Both the position numbers and the translations under genes were made by a program. 9,121 nt of DNA from the NCBI GenBank assembly GCA_013152945.1, contig JAADFL010000022.1, positions 1 through 9,121 on the forward strand, given 5' to 3'. This document shows, piece by piece, positions 1-9,121 of this stretch. The stretch comes from Deltaproteobacteria bacterium (GTDB taxonomy: Bacteria; Myxococcota_A; JAADFL01). Numbering within the stretch: position 1 is the stretch's first letter; every line of letters starts with the position of its first letter. The notes under the pieces are model-generated. The model made no database searches. It worked only from the letters and a program-made list of their open reading frames with translations, and was not told the origin of the DNA.

Positions 1-502
1 CGTGCCGAAGGGGAATACTGTCAAAGAGGCCGACCTCCGGGCGTGTGAAGAACTCATAGAATTTGGACGCATGGTAGAAGGCCGATACTTCTGCGTGGAT
101 ATCGTCTGGGTCGAAGATGCCTGCTACGGCGTCCTCGTAATCCGTGTAAACGAAGCTGCCGTTATCGTTTTTGTTGGCGCGCTGTACAAGGCTGCAGATT
201 CGCTGCACCGTGGGGCCATGCCCGATATTGATGGTGTTGGTTGCGCCCTCGTCGGCGCAGCTATAGACCGCAAGACGTCGTAAGCCGTCTGCGTCTGCCG
301 GGCTCACCAGGACGCCTTTCGCATCGTTCGCGGCCGGGAGCACCAGCTTCTCCATGGAAGGCGTGGCGACCGGGTTGATCGGGAAGACGAGCGCCAGGTT
401 GGAAGGCTTGGTGTCGCCGGAGTCATGTGAGCTGATGCACCCGGTGGCGACGAGTAACAGGATCACCCAAGCAATGAGGAATGGCCTTTTCAACACGGGC
501 AT
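1..502 (-). CDS. Secreted lipoprotein, N-terminal part (runs off left edge)
   Basis: The minus strand is open from an ATG at 502 to the window edge, giving 167 codons with no stop. The N-terminus has a classic lipoprotein signal: Lys5-Arg6, a hydrophobic core (residues 8-20, with LLLV) and a lipobox ending ATGC with the lipidated Cys at residue 22. An AGGAGA ribosome site (plus coordinates 507-512) lies 4 nt before the ATG. The mature part is polar, with two more cysteines (near SCADEG and RICSL) and a segment reading AEVSAFYHASKFYEFF near the visible end. That helix-like Tyr-His pattern loosely recalls the stretch entering the catalytic domain of thermolysin/fungalysin-like secreted metallopeptidases, but no zinc motif is in view, so I do not assign a function. 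Isoleucine is never ATA (0 of 10), unlike the che genes. The gene is divergent from the che operon and probably unrelated to it. Shorter plus-strand frames here have no such signals. Confidence 0.75.
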   Translation of the reverse strand, partial: MPVLKRPFLIAWVILLLVATGCISSHDSGDTKPSNLALVFPINPVATPSMEKLVLPAANDAKGVLVSPADADGLRRLAVYSCADEGATNTINIGHGPTVQRICSLVQRANKNDNGSFVYTDYEDAVAGIFDPDDIHAEVSAFYHASKFYEFFTRPEVGLFDSIPLRH

Positions 503-506
503 GTTC

Positions 507-530
507 TCTCCTGCTCTATTGGTCAGTATA
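507..530 (-). promoter_or_regulatory. Ribosome site and -10-like box of the lipoprotein gene
   Basis: On the minus strand AGGAGA (plus 507-512) sits 4 nt before the ATG at 502. A TATACT hexamer (plus 525-530; 5 of 6 to TATAAT) lies about 22 nt upstream of the start codon. No good -35 hexamer is present at 15-18 nt spacing. If TATACT is used, the mRNA leader would be only about 15 nt. The ribosome site is solid; the -10 call is weak. Confidence 0.35.
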
Positions 531-590
531 AGGCACAAAAGCGTCTTTACATCCACACGGTCATAACGTCTCATCCCCGGGGCGGCTTAG

Positions 591-1130: not shown

Positions 1131-3263
1131 ATGGACTCAAAGTCGGTCCCTCCAGGTTTGCAGGACTTTCTATCCGAGGCCCAGGAAATACTCGAGGGGC
1201 TGGGAAGTGAGCTTCTTTCTCTCGATCGCAGCGGTGATTCGGCGACCATTGACCCGGACATGCTCAATTCGATATTCAGGAGGGCTCATTCCCTCAAGGG
1301 TCTCGCCGGCATGTTCGGTCTCATGGTCATCAGCGATGTAGCTCACCACATGGAGGATGTACTGGATGACTTGCGGCTCGGCAAGGTATCCCTGGAGCCT
1401 GGTATCCTGGACCTGCTTTTCGAAGGAGTGGAATTCCTGACCAGAATCCTGGCCGATCTCGAATCTGAAAAAGACGAAAAAAAGCACCAGGACAGAGCGA
1501 CAGAATACCTGGAGCGCCTGAAAAAGGTTGTTTTTGGTTCAAAAAAAGGCGGCAGCGAACCTGACCTGTCTGACTTGGACTCAAGAATCATCGATGTCCT
1601 GACTGAATATGAAGAGCACAGGCTCAAAGAAAACCTTAAACAGGGGAGAAATCTATATCTTGTCCATTCCGAGTTCGACTTGATGAGCTTTGACCAAAGG
1701 CTGACCGATATCAACAAGAAATTAAAATCCAGGGGAGAGGTCATCTCCACCCTGCCCAGCGCCACTCCGGGTGATGAAAACAGTATTAAATTCGATCTCC
1801 TGTACGGTACTGAACTTGATATTGAACAGGTACAGAAGTTGGTCGCAGGTGAAGGCATTTCTGTGTCACAAGCTTCGTCAACTTCAGTCAAAACAAAAAA
1901 AACGGATTCGAAGGAGTCTCAACCCCTTGACTCGACGGTCCCGAAAAACAAACCTCCCGATTTTGCAAAATCACAGGCATTGGTACAAACGCCGGCGGAT
2001 GACTCGATCCAATCCGGTGTTCCGAGAGGAGTAGGACATACCGTAAGAGTCGACATCAGGAAACTCGATGAACTCATGGAAATAGTCGGAGAACTCGTTC
2101 TTTCCCAATTGGCATTAAAGCAGATCTACTTTGACCTTGAAAGGGGTAAAGAGCTTCATACGCCGTTGATGTCTCTTTTCAGGGAGCAAAGAGTCCTGGA
2201 AAGAAAAATACTGACTTTGCGTGATGCGGTTCTCACGATTCGAATGGTTCCACTGGGACCGACTTTCGACAAGGTCGCAAGAATAGTACGCAGAATATGC
2301 AGGGAGAACGGCAAAGAGGTCAGGCTGGAAATATCCGGAGGCGATACAGAACTGGACAAGATGATTGTAGAAGAAGTGGGCGATCCCCTGGTTCATATGA
2401 TAAGGAACTGCCTGGACCATGGAATCGAGCCCCCTTCGGTCAGAAAAAAGAATGGTAAGCCCGAGATTGGAGTAGTTAGGCTGTCGGCCAGACAACATGG
2501 TAGTCATGTAGTCCTTGAAGTGTCTGATGACGGGGCCGGAATAGATCTCGACCAAGTTCGTTCCGCTGCAATAAAGCGGGGCATGGTGACCCCGGAACGT
2601 GCCAGGGAACTGGATGAACATGGCGTCTTGGACCTGCTGTTCGTCCCGGGCATGACCACGAACGACAAGGTGAGTGAGCTATCCGGCCGGGGAGTAGGGC
2701 TGGATGTAGTAAAAGAAAATATTTCCAATATGTCCGGTCTGGTGGAGGTGGAAACACAAAAGGGTAAAGGTACTACATTCAGGGCGACTCTTCCCATGAC
2801 ACTGGCCATAATCAGGGCCATGTTGGTAGGTGTCAGCGGACGAACCTATGCCTTGCCTTTGACTTCAATTCAAGAAAGCGTTGCCGTTGGATACGGCGAC
2901 ATCGACAACGTGGGCGGTTCTGACGTTTTCGAATACAGGGGAACCACCTTGCCGGTACTGCGCCTGTCCGAATTCTTCAAATTGACGCCGCTTGGTCATT
3001 CCATGATTCAAGACAGGTTATGGACAGATGAAGGAGGACAGACCTACATGGTCGTGGTAGGCCTGGCAGAGAAAAAACTCGGCCTGATGGTGGATAGATT
3101 ACTTGGCGAACAAGACCTGGTAATAAAACCATTGGGGCCTGCATTCAAGGGTATTAAGAGTTTCGCCGGGGCTGCGGAACTGGCCGACAAGAGCACGATA
3201 TTGGTCCTTGATACAGCAGGATTGATGGAAGTCTCTTTGGATCCTGGCGGCGCAAATGGCTAG
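1131..3263 (+). CDS. cheA: Chemotaxis histidine kinase CheA
   Basis: This 710-residue protein has full CheA architecture. P1/HPt covers about residues 8-135 with the phosphorylated His53 in RRAHSLKGLAG. A region at 171-243 (NLYLVHSEFDL, GEVISTLP) resembles the P2-like regulator-docking domain seen in many non-enteric CheA proteins. A polar Lys/Ser/Gln/Pro linker spans about 244-300. The P3 dimerisation helices span about 304-372 (KLDELMEIVGELV). The P4 ATPase has an N box at 418-433 (Asn426, Asp429-His430), G1 DDGAGID (466-472), a variant F box FVPGMTT (504-510), G2 GRGVGLD (519-525) and G3 GKGTTF (545-550). P5, the CheW-like coupling domain, spans about 556-705. It should be a cytoplasmic kinase bound to receptors through the two CheW proteins. 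AAGGAG at 1119-1124 sits 6 nt before the ATG and inside the end of cheY1. No receiver domain is fused, unlike FrzE-type hybrids. The stop overlaps cheW1. Confidence 0.97.
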   Translation: MDSKSVPPGLQDFLSEAQEILEGLGSELLSLDRSGDSATIDPDMLNSIFRRAHSLKGLAGMFGLMVISDVAHHMEDVLDDLRLGKVSLEPGILDLLFEGVEFLTRILADLESEKDEKKHQDRATEYLERLKKVVFGSKKGGSEPDLSDLDSRIIDVLTEYEEHRLKENLKQGRNLYLVHSEFDLMSFDQRLTDINKKLKSRGEVISTLPSATPGDENSIKFDLLYGTELDIEQVQKLVAGEGISVSQASSTSVKTKKTDSKESQPLDSTVPKNKPPDFAKSQALVQTPADDSIQSGVPRGVGHTVRVDIRKLDELMEIVGELVLSQLALKQIYFDLERGKELHTPLMSLFREQRVLERKILTLRDAVLTIRMVPLGPTFDKVARIVRRICRENGKEVRLEISGGDTELDKMIVEEVGDPLVHMIRNCLDHGIEPPSVRKKNGKPEIGVVRLSARQHGSHVVLEVSDDGAGIDLDQVRSAAIKRGMVTPERARELDEHGVLDLLFVPGMTTNDKVSELSGRGVGLDVVKENISNMSGLVEVETQKGKGTTFRATLPMTLAIIRAMLVGVSGRTYALPLTSIQESVAVGYGDIDNVGGSDVFEYRGTTLPVLRLSEFFKLTPLGHSMIQDRLWTDEGGQTYMVVVGLAEKKLGLMVDRLLGEQDLVIKPLGPAFKGIKSFAGAAELADKSTILVLDTAGLMEVSLDPGGANG

Positions 3264-3912
3264 ACGAAAAGATAATGACAGGAGGAATCGCAGGCGGTCG
3301 GGCGAGCCCGGAAGGAGGCGCGAAGACCTTGAAAAAATCGAGATTGCCGGTTCGTATGAGAACACTGCGCAGACAACTTCGTCCGAGGTTTCAAGCGGAT
3401 CACTTACCGACGTGTTTAATTCCATCCCGGTTGCTACCATCGAGGCGTACCGGGCGGCATTGAGCGCCAGACGAGGAAAAAGACAAATATCCGCCGATCA
3501 GTCGGACATCATAGTCTTTCATGTAAGGGACCAACTCATTGGTATCGAGTTGTCCCATGTCGAGGAAGTCAGGAAGATTCCTGAAATTGTGGAGGTGCCC
3601 GGGGCACCACCTGGAATCATGGGAATCGTAAATTTGAGGGGTAAGATGATTCCAATCTGGGATACAAAAGAGATATTGGGACTCGGAGAATCCAAAATAC
3701 CCGAGGCCGGCAGGTTGATACTGGTAAAACACGAAAATGAAGTTCACGGCTTGTTGGCTGACTTTGTGGAAGGAGTCGTGCGTGTCAAGAAAAGCAGTAT
3801 CGAGGATCCTCCACCTTTTTCAGAACCGCTCGGTTCCGTTGCAAAGGGAGTAATAAGGCGGGACAATGGTATGGTAATATTGTTGACTGCTGGAGTGATC
3901 TTTGGCAAGTAG
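3256..3912 (+). CDS. cheW: CheW coupling protein with Arg-rich N-terminal extension (CheW1)
   Basis: The 218 residues split into an unusual N-terminal extension of about 82 residues and a standard CheW domain (about 84-216). The CheW core shows GIVNLRGKMIPIWD with the conserved Arg128 of the kinase/receptor interface, then the second barrel half ending in VILLTAGVIFGK. The extension begins with an extremely basic tract (10 Arg in the first 22 residues) followed by an acidic/polar stretch and a predicted helix around residues 50-72. CheW proteins are usually about 140-180 residues. Its ATG overlaps the cheA stop by 8 nt and has only weak GGCGG upstream, so translation probably depends on coupling to cheA. 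A TTG at 3460 (residue 69) would remove the tail but has no ribosome site, so I keep the long form. It bridges CheA to receptors; the tail is unexplained. Confidence 0.9.
   Translation: MARRKDNDRRNRRRSGEPGRRREDLEKIEIAGSYENTAQTTSSEVSSGSLTDVFNSIPVATIEAYRAALSARRGKRQISADQSDIIVFHVRDQLIGIELSHVEEVRKIPEIVEVPGAPPGIMGIVNLRGKMIPIWDTKEILGLGESKIPEAGRLILVKHENEVHGLLADFVEGVVRVKKSSIEDPPPFSEPLGSVAKGVIRRDNGMVILLTAGVIFGK
3892..3898 (+). promoter_or_regulatory. Ribosome site that fixes the TTG start of cheW2
   Basis: GGAGTGA ends 3 nt before the TTG at 3902 (6 nt if only GGAG pairs), inside the last codons of cheW1. No in-frame ATG exists near the beginning of the CheW domain, so this site decides in favour of the TTG start. 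Confidence 0.6.
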
Positions 3913-4435
3913 CACCGATAACAATCAAATTGAGAAAACAAATACCTCTCTGGATGTGGTGCTGGTCATATTCAGGGTCGGACCCGACCTGTATTCCATC
4001 GATGTATCAGTGATCCAAGAGGTAATACCGGTTATTGCCGCCACCAAGGTACCTTCGGCCCCGGATTTCATCGAGGGTGTAATCGAGTTACGGAAGTTGA
4101 TTGTTCCAGTCGTGGATCTTAGGGCACGATTGGGCTATGCTAAAACGGATGTGGGAAAGAGGGCCAGGTATTTGATCGTTTCCGTGTCCGGACGAATAGT
4201 GGCCATGATGGTAGACGAGGTGATAGAAATAGCTCATGTCAATCCATCTTCCTTCTCGCCTGCACCGGAAATAATAAGGGATGCGGGCGTTAAGTATGTT
4301 TGCGGCGTTCTTCGCAGGAATGGTTTGACTTTGGTGTTGGATTTGGAGGGAGCCCTTTCTCAAAAAGAGATAGCGGCGTTGAAAGAAATGGACCAAGTGT
4401 CCCTGCCCGGTAAACAGCGGGACGAGGGAGAATGA
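3902..4435 (+). CDS. cheW: CheW coupling protein, compact form (CheW2)
   Basis: This 177-residue protein is essentially one CheW domain from about residue 18 to 155: LDVVLVIFRVGPDLYSIDV for the first strands, FIEGVIELRKLIVPVVDLR for the conserved core (Arg64, Asp72), and YLIVSVSGRIVAMMVDEVIEI for the second half. The core has Lys65 where most CheW proteins have Gly (LRG), a small deviation close to the interface Arg. The C-terminal 20 residues or so are charged. Initiation is at TTG 3902, overlapping the cheW1 stop by 11 nt, with GGAGTGA just upstream. The stop overlaps the next start as ATGA. Having two different CheW proteins in one operon suggests either mixed CheA/CheW rings in the array or two receptor classes. 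Its N-terminus lacks the Arg tail of CheW1. Confidence 0.92.
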   Translation: MASSTDNNQIEKTNTSLDVVLVIFRVGPDLYSIDVSVIQEVIPVIAATKVPSAPDFIEGVIELRKLIVPVVDLRARLGYAKTDVGKRARYLIVSVSGRIVAMMVDEVIEIAHVNPSSFSPAPEIIRDAGVKYVCGVLRRNGLTLVLDLEGALSQKEIAALKEMDQVSLPGKQRDEGE

Positions 4436-6477
4436 ACGTGAGTAAAAAAGATATTGGTAACCGACTAAATGATTCTGATGAAGAAGTACGGCGTCTTGCG
4501 GTAATCGAATTGGGGCCGCCGGGAGGCGAGGATGCCCGCAAAATGCTGATATCGGCGCTGGGAGATGAAAGCTGGCGTGTTCGAAAGGTTGCTGTTGAGC
4601 AAATCCTGGCTTTCGGTTCGAGTGACGAGAATATCAAAGACTTGCTTCAATGTCTCCACGAGGAGGATAATGCAGGCCAACGGAATGCAGCCGCCGAGGC
4701 ACTTGCAAGAATAGGACAACCAGCGGTCGAACCACTAATTAAAATGTTGAATGACGATGACAAGGACGCCCGCAAGTTTGCCGTGGACATATTAGGGGAG
4801 ATTGGAGACCGGCAAGGCCTGAAAGGAATCTTGACCGCTCTGGAAGATGAAGACGAAAACGTACGTGTAGCAGCGGCGGAGGCCCTTGGAAGAAGTGGAT
4901 GGCAGGATGCAAAAGACGCATTGTTAAAAGCCCTGGACAGGGAAGATACCATGCTTAACGCCACTGTTCTTGATGCCTTGTTTCACATCGAGGCCCGGGT
5001 GGATGCGGATATGATGGAGCCCTTTCTAAAGGATCCCATATTGAGACGTCCGGCCCTGTTGGCTCTCGGGGGCGCAAGCGACGAAAAGGCGTTCGAGCTG
5101 CTCATCCAATTCTTACCGGACCGCAGGAAGGGATCGAGAGAGGCCGCCATTCTTTCTCTTGACAGGCTGCTCTCCAGATATCCGGAACCGGAGCGTCAGT
5201 CGGTCATCGAAAAGCTGAAAGAGAGAGCTTCCAACAAGGTGCTGGAAGGCATGGAGTCCGCGGTAGTCACCGGCGACCGTGAAACCAGAACCGCGGCGGC
5301 AAGGCTGCTCGGAACGATCGGAAGACCGGAAAGCTCCCCTGCCCTGCTTCAGGCTGCGGCTGATGAAAGCATCAGGCGCGAAGCCTTGAAGGCTTTGCGT
5401 CAAATCGGAGAAGGAGTGATTCCTTCACTATTGGACGCATTACCCGGCTTGTCACTTGAAGAACAAGTTCTCACTTTTGAGGTCCTGGCCACACTTGGGG
5501 ATGAAAGAACCTTGCCGGCAATGATAGACGCTTTGAATGAACCGGATGACCGGCTGAAGGAAGCGGCGGCCGAGGCCATTGGGGCGCTCGGTGATGCCCG
5601 CGGCATAGAACCTCTCACCGGGTTGCTGTCTTCGGATGAACCAAATGTATCCAGGGTGGCCATAAACGCGCTGATATCATTGGCCGGGATGCATCCTGAA
5701 AAAGTAAGGAAGGCGGCTATTTTTGCCTATGAAAATGCATCTTCACCGGCCCAAAGGAAATCCGCCCTTGATATCCTGGCCGAGGTGCCGGCCGGCGGAC
5801 ATGACGAGATTATTCTTTCCGCTGTTCATGATGACAATGCAATGGTCAGAATAGCGGCACTAAAGGGTATCAAGAGTCTGCACAAATCGAGAGCTTCCGG
5901 AAAGTATTACAATGCCCTTGTAGCGGCATTGACAGATGAAAATGCCGATGTGCGAGCCTCCGCCTCTGATTATCTCGGAGAATTGGACGACGCCAGAGCT
6001 GTAAGACCCTTGCTCTCGATGTTGCATGACGACAATGTCCTGGCCAGAGTTGCGGCCATCAAAGCCCTTGGAAAAATAGGCGATCCGTCTTGTTCGCCTG
6101 CATTGCGGGAAATGTTGAAAAACACTGTCGGCCTGGTTACGGTGGCGGCAATTGAGGCGCTTTCCAAGGTCGCACCTGAAGATTTTCTGGAAGAGATGGA
6201 TACATTCATGGAATTCGATGATCCGGAAGTGCTCAAAGAGGTCGCAAGAGCTTTGCGTACCATACCTTTGAAGGCAGCGGAGGATGCCTTGGTTTCATTA
6301 TTGGACCGGACAAGCTGGGAAGTTCGCAGCGAGGCTGCTGGTGCCCTGGCCGACCGCGGGGCCGCGGAAAAGATCCCCGAAATAAAGGCCCGGTTGGAGA
6401 AAGAACAGGATGATTTCGTTCGAGCTGTTCTGCACAAGGCGATAGCACGGCTTCACGGCGAGGCCAAAGAAATCTGA
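4432..6477 (+). CDS. HEAT-repeat (PBS-lyase type) solenoid protein in che operon
   Basis: The 681 residues are built almost wholly from about 21 HEAT/PBS-lyase-like helical repeats of roughly 27-34 residues. The clearest are at about 98-126 (ARKFAVDILGEIGD), 129-156 (VRVAAAEALGRSG), 361-388 (LKEAAAEAIGALGD), 493-520 and 523-551 (ARVAAIKALGKIGD). Repeats at about 160-275 and 420-455 are more diverged. There is no signal peptide, membrane segment or recognisable enzyme motif, so it is predicted to be a cytoplasmic, acidic protein-binding superhelix. The ATG overlaps the cheW2 stop (ATGA) with GAGGGAG just upstream, so its synthesis is locked to the che proteins. HEAT-repeat partners in che clusters have precedent: Cpc7 of the Myxococcus xanthus Che7 system is a HEAT-like protein reported to act with CheY7. 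By analogy this protein may bind one of the two CheY proteins, CheA or CheR/CheB. A PBS-lyase function is not implied; the repeat family is named after those enzymes. Confidence 0.88.
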   Translation: MNVSKKDIGNRLNDSDEEVRRLAVIELGPPGGEDARKMLISALGDESWRVRKVAVEQILAFGSSDENIKDLLQCLHEEDNAGQRNAAAEALARIGQPAVEPLIKMLNDDDKDARKFAVDILGEIGDRQGLKGILTALEDEDENVRVAAAEALGRSGWQDAKDALLKALDREDTMLNATVLDALFHIEARVDADMMEPFLKDPILRRPALLALGGASDEKAFELLIQFLPDRRKGSREAAILSLDRLLSRYPEPERQSVIEKLKERASNKVLEGMESAVVTGDRETRTAAARLLGTIGRPESSPALLQAAADESIRREALKALRQIGEGVIPSLLDALPGLSLEEQVLTFEVLATLGDERTLPAMIDALNEPDDRLKEAAAEAIGALGDARGIEPLTGLLSSDEPNVSRVAINALISLAGMHPEKVRKAAIFAYENASSPAQRKSALDILAEVPAGGHDEIILSAVHDDNAMVRIAALKGIKSLHKSRASGKYYNALVAALTDENADVRASASDYLGELDDARAVRPLLSMLHDDNVLARVAAIKALGKIGDPSCSPALREMLKNTVGLVTVAAIEALSKVAPEDFLEEMDTFMEFDDPEVLKEVARALRTIPLKAAEDALVSLLDRTSWEVRSEAAGALADRGAAEKIPEIKARLEKEQDDFVRAVLHKAIARLHGEAKEI

Positions 6478-6490
6478 AACGGGACAGGTA

Positions 6491-7345
6491 ATGAGTTTTA
6501 TTACTCCACGCCACAGGCTGGACGAGGATGAGTTCAGGGTACTTCGTACCATTGTGAACGATTATGCAGGCATCTATTTTCATGATGAAATGCATTATAT
6601 ACTCGAACGAAGGCTTAGTGCCCGGATAGATGAATTGGGGCTTTCAGGCTTTTCAGACTACATACGGTATATTCGATTCAATCCACGAGGCAGGAGCGAA
6701 TTGGAGGAAACCGTCGAATTATTGAGTACGAACGAGACATATTTTTTCAGGGAAGATTTTCAATTGAAGGCATTTACCGATGAAATCCTGCCTCTCATGT
6801 CCAAATCGGGTCGAAAATCCTTGAGGATATGGAGCGCCGGTTGTTCTTCGGGAGAAGAGCCTTACACAATAGCCATGCTGTTTCTGGAAAGTAGTTTCTC
6901 GCGGAAATTTGAATTGGATATTTTTGCAAGCGATATCAGCCGCAACGTACTTGCACTGGCCAGGAAAGGAACCTATGGAAAGGGTTCATTCAGGCAAACA
7001 CCTGCGCTGTACCTGAGCCGGTACTTCTCCAGGCGGGAAAACAAGCACAAGATTTCGGACCACCTAAAATCCATGGTTACCTTTGGCCACCTCAATCTCC
7101 TTGAAAGAGACAAGGTTGAAGCGCTTGGAAAATTCGACATCATCTTTTGTAGAAATGTTTTGATTTACTTCGACATTCCTTCAAAGAAAAAAGTCGTTGG
7201 CAGCTTTTACAATGCATTGAGACCCGGAGGATTTCTACTTCTCGGCCATTCCGAATCCCTGATGAATATTTCCACGGCCTTCGAACTCGTACATTTTAGA
7301 AATGATATGGTTTATAGAAAACCGGAAAAACACACGACCGTTTAA
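6491..7345 (+). CDS. cheR: Chemoreceptor glutamate methyltransferase CheR
   Basis: This 284-residue protein is the SAM-dependent methyltransferase that methylates glutamates on chemoreceptors, opposing CheB. It has the N-terminal helical domain (about 10-80, with YILERRLSARIDELG) and the diagnostic NETYFFRE (81-88). The SAM-binding motif I is WSAGCSSGEEPYT (114-126), followed by FASDIS (145-150) for the ribose contact. The beta-subdomain lies at about 160-197, then FCRNVLIYF (219-227) and LGHSESL (251-257). All expected catalytic-domain motifs are intact and the length is normal. The ATG is 13 nt after the HEAT stop, with GGGACAGG just upstream. Its presence, with CheB, shows that this pathway adapts through receptor methylation. 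No receptor is encoded in the window, so its substrate must lie elsewhere. Confidence 0.97.
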   Translation: MSFITPRHRLDEDEFRVLRTIVNDYAGIYFHDEMHYILERRLSARIDELGLSGFSDYIRYIRFNPRGRSELEETVELLSTNETYFFREDFQLKAFTDEILPLMSKSGRKSLRIWSAGCSSGEEPYTIAMLFLESSFSRKFELDIFASDISRNVLALARKGTYGKGSFRQTPALYLSRYFSRRENKHKISDHLKSMVTFGHLNLLERDKVEALGKFDIIFCRNVLIYFDIPSKKKVVGSFYNALRPGGFLLLGHSESLMNISTAFELVHFRNDMVYRKPEKHTTV

Positions 7346-7366: not shown

Positions 7367-8449
7367 ATGAAAAAAGTAAGGGTCCTGGTCATAGATGACT
7401 CCACTTTCAATCGAAGAAGCATTATTTCCATGCTCGAATCCAGCGGAGAAGTCGACGTGGTCGGTTCTGCCGCCGACGGCGAAGAAGGATTGAAAAAGTC
7501 AATCGAACTCAAACCTGACGTGGTCACGCTGGACCTTGAGATGCCCAAGATGGATGGATTCACCTTTCTCCGTCTTCTGCTCTCCAGGCAGCCCACCTCG
7601 GTCATAATAATAAGTTCGAATTCTCAGAAACAGAATGTGTTCAAGGGACTTGAACTGGGTGCCCTGGATTTCCTGGCCAAACCGTCAAGGCACATAGATC
7701 CGGGAATGTCCGCGATACGGGATGAACTGCTGAAAAAAGTATTGGTGGTAAGACAATTACGCCGCAGGGCGTTTAAGAGCGGCATAGGCGTAGCCATGGG
7801 ATCAGCCAAAAGGCCGCCTGAACGCGCAATACGGCGCAGAAAAAGCACGGGCAAAACGATATCACCGGCAAAGCTGAAGGTCGTGGCCCTGGGTGCCTCA
7901 ACCGGAGGTCCCTCGGCCATAACACGAATCCTGCGGGAATTGAAATCCGAGCCTGTGATGGCACTGCTGATAACGGTCCACATGCCCGCCAAGTTCACCA
8001 AGGCCTTTGCCGACAGGTTGAACAAGCTATCCAGGTACAATGTCGAAGAAGCAAAGCAGGGAATGTCAATCATGCCCGGTACGGCATTTGTAGCGCCTGG
8101 CGGAAAACACATGGTTGCTGTACCTGGAAGGCCCTGGCCCAAAATAAAAATTCTGGATGAATCCGGGGAGGCCAAGTACAGGCCATCTGTGGATCTGTTG
8201 TTTTCATCCTGTTCCAAGGTATTTGGGAAAAACCTGACCGCATTTGTTCTGACAGGCATGGGGGATGACGGAAAGAAGGGAATCAAGCTGGTCAAGGAAC
8301 AAGGGGGCACCACTATAGTGGAATCCGAGGACACGGCGATAGTATTTGGAATGCCGCACGAAGCCTTTAACACAGGAGCAGTGGATCGAAAGATTCCATT
8401 GGATGAAATACCGGCCGCTATTGACGCACTCGTTTCCATTCGAGGATGA
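7367..8449 (+). CDS. cheB: Chemoreceptor methylesterase/deamidase CheB
   Basis: This 360-residue two-domain protein removes methyl groups from receptors and can deamidate receptor glutamines. The N-terminal receiver (about 1-120) has Asp10-Asp11, phospho-acceptor Asp56 in VTLDLEMPKMDG, Ser83/Ser84 at the switch and Lys105 in FLAKPS. A basic linker follows (about 129-170, rich in Arg/Lys). The C-terminal esterase domain (about 171-360) carries the catalytic triad Ser178 (GASTGGP), His205 (VHMP) and Asp301 (TGMGDDG, where most CheB proteins read MGNDG). The domain is complete and should be active when phosphorylated by CheA. Start choice is discussed with the ribosome site at 7348. The stop is 6 nt before cheY2, whose ribosome site lies in the last cheB codons. 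Confidence 0.96.
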   Translation: MKKVRVLVIDDSTFNRRSIISMLESSGEVDVVGSAADGEEGLKKSIELKPDVVTLDLEMPKMDGFTFLRLLLSRQPTSVIIISSNSQKQNVFKGLELGALDFLAKPSRHIDPGMSAIRDELLKKVLVVRQLRRRAFKSGIGVAMGSAKRPPERAIRRRKSTGKTISPAKLKVVALGASTGGPSAITRILRELKSEPVMALLITVHMPAKFTKAFADRLNKLSRYNVEEAKQGMSIMPGTAFVAPGGKHMVAVPGRPWPKIKILDESGEAKYRPSVDLLFSSCSKVFGKNLTAFVLTGMGDDGKKGIKLVKEQGGTTIVESEDTAIVFGMPHEAFNTGAVDRKIPLDEIPAAIDALVSIRG

Positions 8450-8455
8450 TCTAAA

Positions 8456-8833
8456 ATGACCAAGGCTTTGATAGTAGATGATTCACCCAGTATGAGAGAA
8501 CTGCTTTCTTATGTTCTATCGAAGCTTCCCGGCCTTGAAGTGGAAACTGCACAAGATGGACTGGATGGATTCAAGAAATTACTCTCTTCCAGGTATGACC
8601 TGGTCATCACCGAGATCTACATGCCGATAATGGACGGTTGCAAGCTTGCAAGATTGATCAGGAGCGATCCGAATCACAAGCATATTCCGATATTGGTCCT
8701 GACAAGGGAGACGGACAGGGAATCAAGGAAAAACATGCTTTCCTGTGGAGCAAATGAATACTTGACCAAGCCAATACAAGCTCCTGACGTACTAAGCTTG
8801 GTCAAAAGGCTGCTGTCAGAGAAAAAGTTTTGA
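8456..8833 (+). CDS. CheY-like receiver with Glu at the phospho-acceptor site (CheY2)
   Basis: This is a single receiver domain of 125 residues, similar in size to CheY1. Asp8-Asp9 (metal site), Thr83 (switch), Tyr102 and Lys105 (YLTKP) are all present. The residue that should be the phospho-accepting Asp is Glu53: the motif reads DLVITEIYMP, codon GAG, where CheY1 reads DLIITDINMP. The surrounding MPIMDG turn is normal, so alignment is unambiguous. The domain probably folds but cannot form the standard aspartyl phosphate. It may be locked in an active-like or inactive state, or regulated by binding alone. GAGGA (8442-8446) inside the end of cheB is 9 nt before the ATG. It is the last gene of the operon. 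ATA is again a common Ile codon, so it belongs compositionally with the other che genes. A single-base sequencing error (GAC to GAG) is the main alternative. Confidence 0.92.
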   Translation: MTKALIVDDSPSMRELLSYVLSKLPGLEVETAQDGLDGFKKLLSSRYDLVITEIYMPIMDGCKLARLIRSDPNHKHIPILVLTRETDRESRKNMLSCGANEYLTKPIQAPDVLSLVKRLLSEKKF

Positions 8834-8883
8834 GTCACTTAATTTATTTGACCCTTCCCGCCCCTGGCTTTTTCTTTACCGGT
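8834..8883 (+). other. Spacer after the che operon, no clear terminator
   Basis: About 50 nt, first AT-rich (AATTTATTTG) then pyrimidine-rich (CCCTTCCCGCCCCTGGCTTTTTC). There is no GC-rich hairpin followed by a T tract on the plus strand. The shift into higher-GC sequence with different codon use occurs here. Confidence 0.5.
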
Positions 8884-8887: not shown

Positions 8888-9121
8888 CAGACGTAGACTT
8901 CAATCTCTTATGGGAGCAACGGGGACGGAACGCGAGCTTCTGGCCAATAACCGCGTCGTGTTCAACATCGGCGGAAACAAGTACCGCCTGGCCGTCGCCG
9001 TTAAGTACCGGGCGGGTATCGTGTACATCCGCTTCATCGGAACACACGCCGCCTATGACGAGATTGACGCGGAGGCAATCCTGTTTCGCATGGAGCAGCT
9101 CGGCCTGAGCCGTAAAGACCT
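8884..9121 (+). pseudogene. Degraded higB-higA toxin-antitoxin module, fused remnant (runs off right edge)
   Basis: From 8910 one frame reads the C-terminal half of a HigB-type mRNA interferase: LANNRVVFNIGGNKYRLAV, then IVYIRFIGTHAAYDEID, the family's end signature. Upstream, a different frame reads KADVDFN from 8884 and NASF at about 8928-8939, which match the preceding HigB segment (KADW... and the residues just before NRVVFNI). The spacing is one nucleotide short of in-frame, so a frameshift is likely. The N-terminal half of HigB is absent. After DEID the frame continues directly into AEAILFRMEQLGLSRKDL, which resembles the helix-turn-helix portion of HigA antitoxins (typically IEAIxFRMEQxGLxxKDLEP). 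HigA's first 60-70 residues or so are therefore missing and the two proteins are joined in frame. The ATG at 8910 has no ribosome site. Codons differ from the che genes: no ATA among 6 Ile and no AGG/AGA among 7 Arg. A functional shortened protein cannot be excluded because the 3' end is outside the window. Confidence 0.7.

Follow-up and report, generated by a model that had tools for sequence, protein, structure and literature searches.

A CheY with glutamate at the acceptor position in a deltaproteobacterial chemotaxis operon: a probable aspartate-less pseudo-receiver

Introduction

The last gene of a deltaproteobacterial chemotaxis operon, cheY2, encodes a receiver in which glutamate stands where the phospho-accepting aspartate is expected. 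Did this substitution arise by itself or as one part of a wider change, and what could such a protein do beside a CheA kinase? Aspartate-less receivers (ALRs), which match the receiver profile with the acceptor Asp replaced (PMC4395418, PMC12632262), make up about 4% of receivers in published surveys, and Glu is the commonest replacement (26%) (PMC4395418; PMC12632262). Published ALRs often lack other active-site residues as well. The mode of activation or inactivation of bacterial pseudo-receivers has been called a mystery (PMC12632262). A preliminary description of this DNA had reported Glu53 amid otherwise conserved catalytic residues and read it as an isolated Asp-to-Glu swap. The window, by which we mean the whole stretch of DNA analysed, is an entire contig of 9121 bases from a genome assembly of 4.84 Mb in 218 contigs, 94% complete.

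Results

The window carries on its + strand an operon of cheY1, cheA, two cheW genes, a HEAT-repeat gene, cheR, cheB and cheY2. CheY1 (732-1127) is a receiver with an intact acceptor Asp (ITDINMPD), and the acceptor is likewise kept in CheB (7367-8449), which joins a receiver to a methylesterase. CheA (1131-3263) comprises Hpt, dimerisation, ATPase and CheW-like domains; Pfam searches identified the two CheW proteins (3256-3912 and 3902-4435) and CheR (6491-7345), and the gene of the HEAT-repeat protein (4432-6477) has the same position in the orthologous operons. The operon is probably the organism's only chemotaxis system, since its CheA is the only one detectable genome-wide, three MCP places lie above the cut-off and a flagellar operon is present. 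The latter includes FliM, whose N-terminal start, MDQILSKNEVDALLSA, resembles the CheY-binding N-terminus of FliM. Two further reading frames run off the ends of the contig. The one at 8910-9119 (+ strand) matches Pfam HigB_toxin (E 1e-18), a RelE-like toxin type of toxin-antitoxin systems; the one at 2-574 (- strand), divergent from the che operon, begins with a stretch resembling a lipoprotein signal (LLLVATGC) and had no match in the Pfam search.

The cheY2 gene (8456-8833, + strand) starts 6 bp past the cheB stop, downstream of a GAGGA that is ribosome-site-like, and encodes a single-domain receiver of 125 residues. In a profile search residues 5-116 match Pfam Response_reg (PF00072) with an E value of 1.9e-25, and the AlphaFold2 model, which informs on the fold and does not reliably resolve the switch state, has a mean pLDDT of 94.4 and a TM score of 0.9 against solved CheY structures. 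With the PF00072 profile covering the whole domain and a (beta-alpha)5 fold, CheY2 is a receiver domain. Codon 53 (8612-8614) is GAG, as had been reported, and places Glu53 at the acceptor position; the frame and its motifs are intact, and a misread frame was rejected. Sequence and orthologue alignment agree that Asp8, Asp9, Thr83 and Lys105 are intact, again as first described, and that Tyr102 is present too. CheY2 thus has the acidic pair, the Thr/Ser and the Lys of a canonical phosphorylated receiver and lacks the acceptor Asp at the end of beta3, so that it is an ALR by the definition given above.

The ancestral state of the acceptor is apparent from the relatives. Position 53 is Asp in all 119 distinct relatives aligned, a set collected in the phylum and in public genomes, and by parsimony Asp is therefore ancestral. 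Of these relatives 113 make up the operon set, in which the order HEAT-CheR-CheB-(GAF)-CheY2 was found at every locus whose flanking DNA allowed a check; at some loci this DNA was of insufficient length or had diverged too far upstream of the gene. When about 150 other receivers were added to the tree, the CheY2 of the window grouped within the orthologue clade, the two enclosing nodes having support of 0.97 and 0.83, although local support is low and does not fix its exact neighbour; by operon position and clade placement it belongs to this orthologue group. The genome was also searched for another CheY2 orthologue that might still have Asp, and none was found, the next best receivers being 28-37% identical. 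No close relatives were found in viral contigs, and plasmid matches were all below 60% identity.

The combination of a Glu acceptor with a complete remaining active site proved as unusual as the preliminary description had suggested. Across 111 genomes of the phylum we counted 1561 matches to a DNA pattern encoding Asp-x-x-Met-Pro-x-[Leu/Met/Val]-x-Gly and ten to its Glu counterpart; nine of the ten are non-receivers and the sole real receiver is the CheY2 of the window, giving about 1 in 1560 by this motif survey. Since published ALRs often lose other active-site residues, a Glu acceptor with all other catalytic residues intact is rare here, yet of a known kind. A literature search of partial coverage turned up no description of a che operon whose CheY is naturally of the Glu type.

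Contrary to the first reading, Glu53 does not stand alone: neighbouring positions that are invariant or nearly so in the orthologues have changed too. Of the 22 positions that never vary among the 113 operon-set orthologues, the CheY2 of the window keeps 17 and has lost Asp53, Asn55, Asp90, Ala94 and Leu97, together with the near-invariant Thr84, Arg93 and Leu62. At D+2, Asn (113/113 orthologues) has become Tyr55 (N55Y; TAC, 8618-8620), and at T+1, directly after the conserved switch residue Thr83, Thr (112/113) has become Arg84 (T84R; codons 83 and 84 at 8702-8707). Helix alpha4, which spans residues 88-96 in the predicted structure and is part of the usual output face, carries with its end (residues 88-97, 8717-8746) the changes D90S, R93N, A94M and L97C. 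Four of the five conserved alpha4 positions are thereby altered, whereas all 11 conserved positions of beta5, with Lys105, the beta5-alpha5 loop and alpha5 (residues 98-121, 8747-8818) are kept; the clustering in alpha4, tested post hoc, reaches modest p values of about 0.02 and 0.01. We rejected the possibility that the alpha4 block was swapped in from another receiver, as a 39-residue block matches the orthologues best among the loci compared (63%). The alpha4 of a non-operon receiver (L214, at about 8935 of its locus), SDRESRLRAIECG, resembles the derived alpha4 of the window, TDRESRKNMLSCG, and this likeness is probably convergence on a common receiver motif.

These linked changes bear on whether Glu53 is real and whether it could still be phosphorylated. 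A sequencing or assembly error at one base, with GAC or GAT as the true codon, is suggested by GAG lying one base from either and by the source of the sequence, one contig of one fragmented draft assembly, with one genome of the class in the comparison set. It had been proposed beforehand that Asp in orthologues would point to an error or a strain-specific mutation. Asp was indeed found in all of them; however, the D+2, T+1 and alpha4 changes and the fast branch described below accompany Glu53 and make a base-calling error unlikely, and a chance error at the acceptor codon of precisely the receiver with those losses would be improbable. We regard an error as extremely improbable, and from one genome of the class it is not fully separable from fixation in the strain, in the species or class-wide. 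It is also very unlikely, in our estimation, that CheY2 is still regulated by phosphorylation, be it on Glu53 or on some other residue, and switches at a normal or reduced rate. It retains the metal-binding acidic pair together with Thr83 and Lys105, and phosphorylation of Glu is chemically possible (PMC4395418), but that source knew of no phospho-Glu example in bacterial signalling, and bulky residues now occupy positions that gate the site, T+1 controlling access to the acceptor and D+2 lining the path (PMC8510515).

The whole gene has also evolved fast. On a tree fixed from CheR and CheB, with the terminal-branch share compared gene by gene, the branch of the window takes up 10.3% of the CheY2 tree against 2.8% for CheR and 2.6% for CheB. 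Identities in a 16-operon subset, comparing window with orthologues against orthologues among themselves, are 0.49 and 0.74 for CheY2, 0.50 and 0.59 for CheY1, 0.48 and 0.59 for CheR, 0.44 and 0.51 for CheB, and 0.42 and 0.54 for CheA. The window lies within the orthologue range for CheY1, CheR and CheB and marginally under the lowest orthologue for CheA (0.418 against 0.427), whereas its CheY2 lies far under it (0.493 against 0.601). As the other four proteins compared are within or barely below the orthologue range, the acceleration is largely specific to CheY2 and not the property of a divergent genome.

A coiled-coil GAF-domain gene stands between cheB and cheY2 in most of the orthologous operons (including L022, L027, L030 and L045), and its product is a candidate partner of the Asp-type CheY2. 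The gene is absent from the corresponding 8449-8456 of the window, and the best match genome-wide is a weak GAF match. Loss of this gene was rejected as a sufficient cause of Glu53, because other lineages without it keep Asp53; they keep alpha4 as well.

Rapid change could also mean decay, in which the role of CheY2 was lost, selection relaxed and Glu53 was a step towards a pseudogene. CheY2 is the only fast-evolving protein among those compared, residues invariant in the orthologues are gone, and so is the GAF gene found beside cheY2 in most relatives. We nevertheless argue that CheY2 is still under constraint, because the reading frame has stayed intact over a long branch, GAGGA precedes it, 17 of the 22 invariant residues are retained and the receiver fold is predicted with confidence. 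The losses are moreover unevenly spread, every conserved beta5-alpha5 position having been spared, and we hold decay to be unlikely.

Discussion

The closest comparison for CheY2 by descent is its orthologues in the che operons of Myxococcota/'Deltaproteobacteria' (CheY1-CheA-CheW-CheW-HEAT-CheR-CheB-(GAF)-CheY2), which share the operon position, the single-domain fold and the beta5-alpha5 face at 47-56% identity. They have Asp53, Asn55, Thr84, the invariant alpha4 residues and, mostly just upstream, the GAF gene, in all of which the CheY2 of the window differs. Glu-type ALRs are already known in CmrT, AtvR and ChxR, and CheY2, with the most frequent of the ALR replacements, adds a member to this kind. 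CmrT of Clostridioides difficile (PMC12548384) also has its Glu at residue 53 and keeps the Thr and the Lys; its gene, like cheY2, lies in one operon with those of a kinase and of a regulator of the Asp type, and it works without phosphorylation, as CheY2 probably does. Unlike CheY2, it is an OmpR-family DNA-binding regulator with an altered acidic pair (DGD) and does not belong to a CheA system. AtvR of Pseudomonas aeruginosa, according to PMC12548384, combines the Asp-to-Glu acceptor with retention of the Thr/Ser, the Lys, Tyr at K-3, Pro at D+4 and Gly at D+8, as CheY2 does, but is a NarL-family regulator without one residue of the acidic pair. ChxR of Chlamydia trachomatis (PMC4395418, PMC3960148) likewise has a Glu acceptor, and is itself active without phosphorylation; it differs in being an OmpR/PhoB regulator with a DNA-binding domain and in having a pocket structure that is partly missing. 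A pseudo-receiver is also found in FrzS, a motility protein of Myxococcus xanthus that acts by protein contact (PMC4395418, PMC12632262), unlike CheY2 a multidomain protein with an Ala acceptor and a C-terminal coiled coil. We infer that CheY2 would work most like CmrT, AtvR or ChxR, but as a single-domain CheY within a CheA operon.

We propose that CheY2 is a lineage-specific aspartate-less pseudo-receiver with a phosphate-independent binding role, an explanation that we consider likely. Comparison with its relatives shows that its ancestor was an ordinary CheY with an Asp acceptor, of the kind still seen at the same operon position. In the lineage of the window Glu has taken the place of the acceptor, the bulky Tyr55 and Arg84 stand at the mouth of the pocket and alpha4 has been remodelled; the fold is retained, as are the acidic pair, Thr83 and Lys105, and the face formed by beta5-alpha5. 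With Glu as the acceptor and access to it narrowed, a usable phosphoryl transfer from CheA to CheY2 is very probably absent. The cluster of Glu53, Asp8, Asp9 and Lys105 most likely holds the fold in one phosphorylation-independent conformation, as in the crystal structure of CmrT, where Glu53 is hydrogen-bonded in an active-like pocket (PMC12548384). CheY2 most likely acts by stoichiometric binding within the chemotaxis system, using the faces that it has kept as well as those that were rebuilt, which would leave CheY1 and CheB as the signal-carrying substrates of CheA; candidate partners are CheA, FliM, the HEAT protein or something new. One detectable CheA together with an encoded flagellum suggests that CheA-CheY1 probably carries the phosphate signal and that CheY2 works without phosphorylation.

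The chances that this conformation is like that of 'active' CheY are roughly even. A stronger form of the pseudo-receiver explanation is that CheY2 is a constitutively active output, in which Glu53 mimics phospho-Asp and the protein sits permanently on its target, the flagellar switch or another, setting a basal bias that CheY1 modulates. Asp-to-Glu substitution is often partly activating in receivers (PMC4395418), the switch residues Thr83, Tyr102 and Lys105 are kept, and K+2 is Ile, a residue type that shifts CheY to active conformations and that the orthologues share. An active-like state of the NtrC D54E type, as proposed for CmrT and AtvR, is plausible for CheY2, if unproven. However, the alpha4 portion of the output face is rebuilt, the Asp-to-Glu change is by itself often insufficient for activation, also in CheY (PMC4395418), and replacing the glutamate of CmrT (E53A) barely affects that protein (PMC12548384). 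This stronger form is in our judgement possible but tentative. The preliminary description had also put forward, as possible roles, a competitor of CheY1 for CheA or the HEAT protein and a structural subunit.

It may also be surmised, with considerable doubt, that in the operon of the only detected CheA CheY2 became in one lineage a pseudo-receiver independent of that kinase and, with its rebuilt alpha4 face, took a new partner. If this were true, flagellar chemotaxis would have a built-in component that does not depend on phosphate. The ancestral state is represented by numerous orthologues with Asp in this conserved operon, and the derived state by one lineage with few accompanying changes. 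As both states are visible and the list of changes is short, the operon offers a clean system for asking which of Glu53, Tyr55, Arg84 and alpha4 make a phospho-switch independent of phosphate.

One locus of the comparison (L025) has, adjoining its CheY2, a CheB-like receiver with Asn at the acceptor position (ITLNLEMP; 8638-8868 of that locus). Its spacing differs from that of the other operons, so that this receiver may be an assembly problem.
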